From positions 1-64,000 of the forward strand of contig JAHCHG010000014.1 of NCBI GenBank assembly GCA_026129865.1: a stretch of DNA of 64,000 nucleotides, read 5' to 3'. The position numbers and the translations under genes were made by a program. The notes under the pieces are model-generated. The model made no database searches, was not told the origin of the DNA, and saw nothing but the letters and a program-made list of their open reading frames with translations. Shown here piece after piece: positions 208-3,413 of this stretch (within the stretch, counting starts at the first letter, position 1; each line of letters begins with the position of its first letter). This stretch comes from Pyrinomonadaceae bacterium. GTDB lineage: Bacteria; Acidobacteriota; Blastocatellia; Pyrinomonadales; Pyrinomonadaceae.

Positions 208-300
208 CGGAAGGTGTGGGATTCGAACCCCAGCACGGATCTAGCGTGCGCCCTTAGGATGATAAGCCCTTTAAGACAACCATGTCTCGGGACACCTTCC
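208..300 (-). tRNA. Unusual long-variable-arm tRNA with a 9/3 acceptor branch (allo-tRNA-like)
   Basis: Read on the minus strand, the 5' end GGAAGGTGT pairs perfectly over 9 bp with ACACCTTCC at the 3' end. The T-arm has only three GGG/CCC pairs around a canonical TTCGAAT loop, so the branch is 9+3 instead of 7+5. A 5-bp GCACG/CGTGC stem forms a long variable arm, as in serine, leucine and selenocysteine tRNAs. A possible D-arm is GAGAC/GTCTT with a GG-containing loop. The anticodon is uncertain: the best 7-nt loop, CTTATCA in a weak AGGG/TCCT stem, would give UAU, while a competing CTTA/TAAG hairpin has a 6-nt loop. CCA is not encoded; the discriminator would be G. The 9/3 fold is the hallmark described for allo-tRNAs. 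It could also be a degenerate tRNA. Confidence 0.7.
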
Positions 301-710: not shown

Positions 711-3260
711 TCATTTACACTTCGAATACCCGCAATCCCTGCAGAAATCGCAGCCGGACGCGTGTTCTAGTTGTCCGCGGCATTCGGGGCATTCGCCGAT
801 CAGGCTGGACATGTTCGATTCCGGTCGCGGCTGAGCTGCAGGCGCATCCGTTATCATTTTGTTCATCTGGCGTTCGGATGCCGGGAGATTTTGCAGACGT
901 CTTCCGGTCAGAAGCAGACATTCGGCGACCGCCTGTTCGGGCGAAGAAAGCAGACGTTCATTGAACCAGACGGCGTGCGTGCCGGTAACTTTGTTCAGGC
1001 TTCGTGCGACTTCCTTTACGGCAAAACCGCCGCGCAGCATTCTTGAAGCGAGCAGACCGACGCCTTCCGAGATCGGTCCGGTCGCGAAAACTTCCAGAAC
1101 ATTTTCGCCGTCGTGATTTACCGTAACGTAAAGATTTTGCCCGTCAAACGGAATTCTCCAGGTCGAACCCTGAAGTTCGCGGGGGCGCGCGATGCGCTGA
1201 TTTTCGTCTGTTTTTGACTGAGTTACGACGAAATCCTGATTTTGCCCGACCTTGTCGACGACGGCGATCGCTTCCTTTTTCTCGCTCTTCATCGACGTCA
1301 AAACCTGACCTTCGCGCGATCCGTCGCGGTAATAAGAAACGCATTTACAGCCGAGATCGCGCGCGAGGCGATAAAGTTCGTCAACCGATTCGACTGTGTC
1401 GTCTTTTGCGCCGTTGCAGGTTTTCGAAACCGAATTATCGACGTTTCGCTGCGCCGCGGCGAGAACCTGAACATGCTGTTTCGATGTGATGTTCATCGCC
1501 GAAATAAAATATTCGGGAAGTTTATGTTCGTTTTCGACGACATAAGCCGCAGCCGTCGCGATCGATTCTTCGTCGGTCTGATCGACCTCGATCCCGAGCG
1601 CCTCGGCGGCAAGTTGATGAACATAGGTTCGCGTGCCGATGGTGTCCTGCCGAACGTAAGCCCACGAAAAATTGGGTTCGCAGCCGGAAGAGGTTTCGGC
1701 GACAAGTGAGATCGTGCCGGTCGGCGCGATGGTCGTCGTTTCGTAATTTCGCGGCGTCAGCGGAACTTCGCGAGAAATTCCAAGTTCGTCATAAATGAAC
1801 TGAGCGTAAGCCTCGCGGTTCGGTTCAAATTCGGGAAATGTTCCCTTCATTGCGCCTAATTTTAATGAAGCACGCCATGCTTCTTTACGGACGAATCCCA
1901 TCATTCTATCCATCAGATCGATGGATTCCGGCGAACCGTATGTGATCTGAAGCTTTAGACAAAGATCGGCAAATCCCATTATTCCCAATCCGACCGGACG
2001 AGTTCGTTTTACGACATCGTCGATCTCGGGCAGAGGGAAAAATCCGGCATCGATGACGTTGTCCAAAAACTGTGTCGAAAGCTGTGTCGCGCGCGAAAGA
2101 CGTTCCCACTCGACGCATTCGCCGACGTCAGTTCCGTCGCCGACCCTTTTGTAAAACTTTGAAAGATCTATACTTCCAAGATTGCAGGAATTTGAAAAAT
2201 GCAGAAACTGCTCACCGCACGGATTGCTCGCGTAGATCGGTCCCATCGATCTCATCATATGATTATGACGATTTACCTGATCGATAAACGCAATTCCCGG
2301 TTCGGCATATTTATGCGCCGAAGCGATGATCCTGTTCCAGATGTCCGGCGCAAAGATCATGCCCGGCGCGGGCGGATTTTCGACTTCGCAATCGGTTAGA
2401 TCGGCGGTTTCAAATGCCAGTTTATCGGCAAATGTCGCCGTCGTTCCATCCGGTCGGCGGTATATTACATAATCGCCGCCGGTTACAGGATCGAAAACAG
2501 GCTGAGTCCACGCTTCGCCCGCAAACGACGTTTGGAACCATTCGTTATTGTCGACCGCGCCCATGAAATCGTCGGTTACATTTACAGAAATATTGAAATT
2601 CGTCAGCGATGTCTGATCGTTTTTCGCGTGAATAAATCGCAAAACGTCCGGATGCGTTACGCGCATCATTCCCATATTCGCGCCGCGGCGGACGCCGCCT
2701 TGCTTTACGACCTCGGTCATCGTATTGACGATGTTCATGAACGAAACCGGTCCGCTCGCCACACCGCGCGTCGAATTTACCATCGAACCCATCGGGCGGA
2801 TAAATTCATAGGTCATTCCGGTACCGCCGCCGGTTTGATGGATGACGGCAGCCGCCTGAGCGTGCTCCATAATGCCGTCGATAGAATCCGGAACGTTCAA
2901 AACGAAGCAAGCCGCCAGCTGACCTTTCGGTTTTCCGGCGTTGACCAGACACGGCGTGTTTGGAATGAATTCGCGGTTGAGCATGATCTCGGTCATCGAA
3001 TTATAAAAATAATCGCGCATGACGGGATCGGTCTCGGCGGTTGAAACGAATCCGACAACACGGCGGACGATATCTTCCCATTTTTCAAGAGCTTCGCCGT
3101 TGGAATCTTTGAGCGAATACCGCTTTGCAATTACTTTTTGACCGTTCAAACCGACCGGTTTGTACTCAAGCTTGCGCGAAACACCGGCGCCGTTTCCATT
3201 GCCATTTCCGTTCTTAGCGACAACATTGCCCGTCATGACAGGCTCAAAGACTCTGCTCAT
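711..3260 (-). CDS. nrdJ: Adenosylcobalamin-dependent (class II) ribonucleotide reductase
   Basis: This enzyme reduces ribonucleotides to deoxyribonucleotides using coenzyme B12 and needs no oxygen. The protein is about 849 aa. It shows [13 protein letters not shown] near residue 101, the paired cysteine at about 118, the central NPCGEQ motif with its radical-site region, and a C-terminal zinc-ribbon-like CPECRG...[13 protein letters not shown] tail that probably carries the reducing cysteines. I chose the ATG at 3260 (MSRVFEPV) over an upstream start at 3323 because AAGGAAGG lies just before it and the extra 21 residues look non-coding. It is monocistronic, with its own promoter and NrdR-like sites upstream. 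No cobalamin riboswitch was seen in the leader. Confidence 0.96.
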
Positions 3261-3413
3261 CTTGCGTTTTCCTTCCTTAAATTTAGATTTAGTATTCCAA
3301 AGACACGAGTGTTGTTCAAGCAAAACTGCTACTTGTTTCTGGTAACCCTAAAATGCTCTTTTGATTTTAACTGAGAAACCGAATTGAAAGTTTCTACCGC
3401 TGAAATGTCAGTC

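Follow-up and report, generated by a model that had tools for sequence, protein, structure and literature searches.

A probable (9/3) allo-tRNA-like gene of a transposon-associated family in an Acidobacteriota genome

The minus strand from position 300 to 208 of the window, by which we mean the whole 64,000-nucleotide stretch analysed here, probably holds a (9/3) allo-tRNA-like gene that belongs to a transposon-associated family and is left as a single copy in a Blastocatellia-type (Acidobacteriota) genome. By comparing sequences, we show a 9/3 cloverleaf with a fifth stem, its upkeep by covariation, and its kinship with tRNA-like genes inside complete IS1-like transposons.

Sequence and fold of the window gene

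Read from 300 to 208, the gene begins with GGAAGGTGT-CCC-GAGACA.TGGT.TGTCTT-AA-AGGG.CTTATCA.TCCT-AA-GGG-C- and continues with GCACG.CTAGATC.CGTGC-TG-GGG.TTCGAAT.CCC-ACACCTTCC-G. CCA is not encoded at its 3' end; ATCT comes next instead. The predicted features of the gene, and the open reading frame upstream of it, are as follows.

208..300, minus strand: (9/3) allo-tRNA-like gene, 93 nt including the discriminator G73 (sequence, end-to-end Rfam tRNA-Sec match, and covariance models R1 and R2 built with homologues)
292..300, minus strand: 5' strand of the acceptor stem, GGAAGGTGT, 9 bp (pairing and covariation)
289..291, minus strand: P5a, CCC, RNA nt 10-12, 5' half of the fifth stem (pairs with P5b)
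273..288, minus strand: D-arm with a 6-bp stem GAGACA/TGTCTT and a TGGT loop, tRNA-Sec-like (covariation)
256..270, minus strand: anticodon arm, a weak 4-bp stem with a closing G-U and the loop CTTATCA (Rfam match and pairing in the homologues)
262..264, minus strand: anticodon TAT (UAU) by the 7-nt reading, followed by an unusual C37 (sequence)
251..253, minus strand: P5b, GGG, RNA nt 48-50, 3' half of the fifth stem (pairs with P5a)
233..249, minus strand: long variable arm GCACG.CTAGATC.CGTGC with a 5-bp stem (pairing and covariation)
218..230, minus strand: T-arm, 3-bp GGG/CCC around TTCGAAT (pairing, with the 7/5 and 8/4 alternatives counted)
209..217, minus strand: 3' strand of the acceptor stem, ACACCTTCC (pairing and covariation), with G73 at 208
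711..3323, minus strand: upstream neighbour on the same strand as the tRNA-like gene (from the list of open reading frames), outside the element

We take the ORF at 711..3323 to be a ribonucleotide reductase (RNR) of the vitamin-B12-dependent type. Between it and the tRNA-like gene, a perfect 10-bp inverted repeat (AGCGGAACGG/CCGTTCCGCT) lies at 309-332.

All nine acceptor pairs are perfect, and the T-stem has 3 bp. The earlier note had described this branch, with its TTCGAAT loop and long variable arm, as the layout of an allo-tRNA distinct from the 8/5 Sec form, and the sequence reads as it said, on the minus strand. Every sequence feature by which (9/3) allo-tRNAs are defined, namely a 9-bp acceptor, a 3-bp T-stem, a long Sec-like D-stem, and a long V-arm (PMC7590224), is present. 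The serine-type identity that the note proposed is consistent with the 5-bp V-stem and G73. We also agree with its choice of UAU as the best 7-nt reading of an ambiguous loop: the loop is CTTATCA, and a wobble at 31-39 leaves some ambiguity.

The Rfam tRNA-Sec model (RF01852) matches the gene over its full length with 37 bits (E 5e-5 in 3 kb), under the gathering score of 47. The folding energy (MFE -37 kcal/mol, z -3.0) was equalled by 1 of 200 shuffles. Because of the end-to-end tRNA-Sec match, the fold relative to shuffles, a 72%-identical homologue, and the compensatory changes between the two, the feature is confirmed as a genuine tRNA-like gene of odd shape, above the level of chance. 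ARAGORN, one of the tools suggested in the earlier note, found zero tRNAs over the whole 64-kb window and so missed the gene.

Since tRNA-Sec is the best Rfam family, a second, variant tRNA-Sec has to be considered. The window gene and bacterial tRNA-Sec have in common a long D-stem, a 4-nt D-loop (UGGU), a long V-arm, and an extended acceptor branch. However, the window gene has no UCA, its branch is 9/3 with a 3-bp T-stem and not 8/5, its score is below the gathering threshold, and an ordinary tRNA-Sec (UCA) is encoded elsewhere in the genome, on contig C3 (C3:13081, 67.6 bits). We regard this explanation as very improbable. A duplicate of tRNA-Sec is already refuted by the anticodon, and the gene reaches neither an 8/5 or 9/4 branch nor the gathering score.

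In the allo-tRNA reading that we prefer, the window gene would be transcribed, trimmed at both ends, and supplied with CCA post-transcriptionally. SerRS would charge the RNA through its long V-arm and G73, whatever the anticodon, and the RNA may then work as an odd-codon tRNA with UAU pairing to AUA, which makes up 143 of the 14,444 codons in the long ORFs of the window. Its weak anticodon stem and its C37, unlike those of working tRNAs, count against this reading. As UAU pairs with AUA and no stop codon, stop reading does not apply to the window copy. The suggestion that the gene could recode in-frame stops in this genome is not supported, and no recoded gene was found.

Homologues, covariation, and the fifth stem

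When 119 genomes of the same family were searched at the DNA level, one full-length homologue came up, from another genus and with 72% identity (G066). The D-stem and V-stem substitutions between this homologue and the window gene are compensatory. A covariance model built from the pair retrieved six further homologues (G119, G002, G070, G134, G029, and G013) among 162 genomes of the class, giving 8 sequences together with G066 and the window. The window gene is closest to G066 and falls in the 9/3 group by structure. At the anticodon position, the homologues have the loop YUUUACA (UUA) or CUUCCGA.

On the 8 sequences, the 9/3 structure has 94.3% of its cells paired, compared with 43-51% when the partners are slid, and its covariation score is 0.604 versus 0.163 or less for slid partners, on an alignment that was fitted to the 9/3 structure, and so is biased toward it, and on which the alternatives were scored as well. 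Changes on both sides were found in 18 of the 27 pairs. The D-stem shows them in all six pairs across the family, and the V-stem in all five, with 100% pairing in the 8 sequences. At the ninth acceptor position, 7 of 8 sequences have a standard pair, and the pair changes to C-G in G119. The homologues show that selection maintains the 9/3 pairing in the family of the window gene. Conservation in relatives, to which the earlier note had looked, is thereby borne out, and the canonical 7/5 fold that would have spoken against its claim did not appear. A 7/5 cloverleaf, as in canonical tRNA-Ser, was rejected because one of its two extra T-stem pairs is missing from 7 of the 8 sequences and the other from 6, and an 8/4 cloverleaf because 6 of the 8 lack its extra pair.

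Nucleotides 10-12 are complementary to nucleotides 48-50 in each of the ten 9/3 sequences compared (30 of 30 cells, in columns aligned by hand). Two sequences depart from CCC/GGG with compensation on the other side, G029 with CGC/GCG and the Myxococcota sequence L155 with GCC/GGC, and 97 of 10,000 re-dealings matched this pairing. The extra stem, P5, is apparently part of the structure of the 9/3 family, and it agrees with the 'possible five-stem-junction structures' described for irregular allo-tRNAs (PMC7609411).

Transposons around the relatives and the state of the window copy

Inverted repeats that begin with GGTAGTGTCC enclose the tRNA-like gene in five of the seven homologues (G119, G002, G070, G029, and G013). 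The five elements are 2.6-4.0 kb in size and have target duplications of 8-9 bp (AATCTGTT, AATTCAACC, ACAACTTG, GGCTCGCTC, and AGCTTTTC, read off the printed flanks). Four of them encode an IS1-type transposase of about 277 aa (PF03400), then an ORF of about 100 aa that overlaps the transposase end and has no Pfam match, then a short RHH-like ORF (about 60 aa), and the tRNA-like gene is convergent with this set. One element with this conserved pair of ORFs is L098 4306-8213. The G119 element has no transposase and carries DUF4160 and DUF2442 genes instead.

The other two homologues, G066 and G134, have a different context, in which a coiled-coil/wHTH ORF, the tRNA-like gene, and a DDE_Tnp_1-type transposase follow one another on the same strand. 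They have a transposase remnant in common, matched by eye in G134. A search for inverted repeats of this second transposase type found none in G066 and several in G134, none of them bounding an element. The coiled-coil and winged-helix ORF directly upstream of the tRNA-like gene recurs in both transposon contexts and belongs to no clear known family (L171, L132, L169, L156, L068:17013-17477, and L100:5994-6785). Defence-system models gave no credible match. In G066, a second odd tRNA-like gene follows right after the allo-tRNA-like gene (L068:17596-17666). It scores 47.5 bits with Rfam tRNA, is missed by ARAGORN, and has a Thr-like anticodon loop and a T-loop without TTC.

Around the window copy, window base 1 is the contig end, 207 nt beyond the 3' end of the gene. 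No GGTAGTGTCC ends were found within 6 kb on the 5' side, and on the 3' side the sequence stops at the contig end; an arrangement between such inverted repeats with a duplication is not seen in the visible part. The 3' flank scored at shuffle level against the spacer of the IS1-like element, with no resemblance. A search of the window genome with both transposases gave no match, in a kind of assembly (bins) that often loses repeats, and viral contigs had no match to the core pattern of the gene. Positions 17-78 of the window are repeated near the end of contig C3 with 87% identity. The gene is best described as (9/3) allo-tRNA-like and as a member of a transposon-associated family.

A lone copy at a contig edge, with no intact mobile element in the flank that can be seen, could also be a decaying pseudogene, that is, a remnant of a transposon-borne allo-tRNA or of tRNA-Ser/Sec that is no longer made or charged. 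The weak anticodon stem, C37, and the lack of a promoter-like site before the gene would fit such decay, for which there is a precedent: an allo-tRNA-UAU pseudogene with broken pairs that overlaps a transposon ORF (PMC7609411). However, no pair is broken in the acceptor (9), D (6), V (5), T (3), or P5 (3) stem of the window gene, its fold beats 199 of 200 shuffles, and its D- and V-stem changes relative to G066 are paired. We consider a pseudogene rather unlikely.

An alignment search with the transposase gave 80 loci from Acidobacteriota, Verrucomicrobiota, several proteobacterial groups, Myxococcota, Chloroflexi, and others; these loci are phylogenetically non-independent, many are metagenome-assembled, and the public contigs overlap in part with our genomes (L109 = G029, L123 = G013, and L158 = G070). 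Inverted repeats of the GGTAGTGTCC type and 8-bp duplications were seen again in cross-phylum loci. With a scanner that considers only the T-loop and acceptor pairing, 26 tRNA-like genes were found adjoining 25 of the 80 transposases. Their density near the transposase is 0.170 per strand-kb versus 0.0044 in flanking DNA (39-fold), and shuffled replicates gave 0.2 scanner matches each. The tRNA-like gene is enclosed by two inverted ends and a duplication in at least 13 elements. For 27 of these transposases, ARAGORN reported only five tRNA-like genes of any kind nearby.

Two kinds of gene occur beside the transposase. One has the 9/3 layout with a long V-arm and G73, and is also found in Myxococcota (L174 and L155). 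The other has a 7/5 layout with A73 and G3:U70, the major identity set of AlaRS (PMC7590224). In this Ala type, G3:U70 is present in 19 of 21 genes, and also in L126 with its start re-set, and A73 is present in all. The loop contains YTACA in 24 of the 26 matches, corresponding to the stop-codon anticodons UUA or CUA by a 7-nt reading that is uncertain, with ARAGORN giving 8-nt loops in L138, L156, and L184. In L134 and L171, the tRNA-like genes beside the same transposase have the loop CTTTCCA (anticodon UUC), which is not stop-reading.

Transposon-borne relatives with the same layout and a YUA anticodon would act as stop-codon suppressors. The genes may be passenger tRNAs of transposons that exploit anticodon-blind synthetases, Ser for the 9/3 kind and Ala for the 7/5 kind. 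Tentatively, and as a possibility that falls short of being probable, the cross-phylum IS1-like transposons that bear their own UUA/CUA tRNAs on SerRS/AlaRS may be mobile nonsense suppressors, with the window gene a Ser-type relative whose anticodon has moved to UAU. The transposase itself needs no suppression, and passenger, addiction-like, or regulatory roles are conceivable. Suppression of in-frame stops in the transposase was considered and rejected: among 24 transposase ORFs beside a tRNA-like gene, UAA or UAG occurred in frame twice (TAG), with no enrichment over ORFs without such a gene. The terminal stop is UAA or UAG in 15 of 24 transposases with a tRNA-like gene versus 18 of 55 without, a difference for which lineage and a TAG within the inverted repeat are confounders. 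A search for recoded passenger ORFs gave just spurious-looking frames.

The same genes could instead be structured RNAs of the mobile element that mimic tRNA with no decoding use, such as a regulator or an RNA that binds the adjacent wHTH protein. Their triplets vary (UAU, UCC, UUC, UUA, and CUA) with loop positions 32-33 and 37-38 near constant, P5 alters the junction, and several elements have the coiled-coil/wHTH ORF ahead of the tRNA-like gene. A pure mimic, however, would not need the recurrent YUA, and the identity elements (G3:U70 with A73, and the long V-arm with G73) are kept despite divergence elsewhere. Nor is the anticodon loop complementary to the transposase leader: its antisense matches in the element numbered 37 versus 34.2 expected, and none fell at the transposase start. 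We find a mimic unlikely, though deserving of serious attention.

Transposase relatives on plasmids are annotated as 'IS1 family transposase'. The Acidiphilium multivorum plasmid NZ_CP041717.1 (L200) has a gene distantly related to the transposase and, next to it, a RES/Xre toxin-antitoxin pair; GGTAGTG repeats flank them. This case suggests that IS1-like elements carry varied cargo.

Comparison with known systems

(9/3) allo-tRNAs serve genetic-code expansion, and their natural role has been called 'a bit more speculative' (PMC7609411). Relatives within complete transposons would give these known unexplained tRNAs a concrete habitat and a testable role, and they raise the question of whether suppressor tRNAs are spread by transposons, and why. 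If they are, horizontal transfer of a gene of 70-95 nt could change stop-codon fidelity in soil bacteria. Such genes are missed by standard annotation.

(9/3) allo-tRNAs are known from Acidobacteria among others (Mukai and colleagues; PMC7590224, PMC7609411). The window gene has in common with them the 9-bp acceptor, the 3-bp T-stem, the Sec-like D-stem, the V-arm, G73, and a non-serine anticodon (UAU by the 7-nt reading). The anticodons recorded for the 9/3 kind are Arg, Leu, and ochre, and UAU is among the commonest in the 8/4 kind (PMC7609411). The known examples come mainly from short metagenomic reads, whereas those described here are in assembled genomes with context, and have P5 in addition. 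A plain 8/4 allo-tRNA with UAU and the loop CTTATAA is present in another family of the phylum (L189:1501-1584, G295:C50). Clusters of 18 and 16 divergent tRNA genes in about 1.7 kb, unusual Ser-like genes included, are found in the same family as the window (L040, G010:C22, and L041, G014:C9).

Another close description is that of the irregular five-stem allo-tRNA-UAU from Edaphobacter C40 and soil metatranscriptomes, for which a fifth stem between the acceptor and the D-arm was proposed, like that of the window gene (PMC7609411). UAU, a suspected transposon link, and stem irregularities are common to both. The Edaphobacter type was proposed to be 8/4 or 9/4 with G-1, whereas the window gene is 9/3 and its P5 has compensatory changes, in a comparison made by description. 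A link of irregular allo-tRNAs to transposons or toxin-antitoxin systems was suspected before, and irregular five-stem allo-tRNAs tested earlier were unused in E. coli translation (PMC7609411).

The elements that host the homologues share the IS1-type transposase, inverted ends, and 8-9 bp duplications with IS1-family insertion sequences (PF03400). They differ in being mostly 2.3-4.4 kb, with the ORF of about 100 aa, the RHH-like ORF, and the tRNA-like gene as cargo. A literature search on transposon-borne suppressor tRNAs found nothing relevant. Relative to the cited papers, we believe that complete transposons with defined ends that bear such genes are new, as are the recurrent YUA anticodon, the Ala-type counterpart, and the covariation of the fifth stem.
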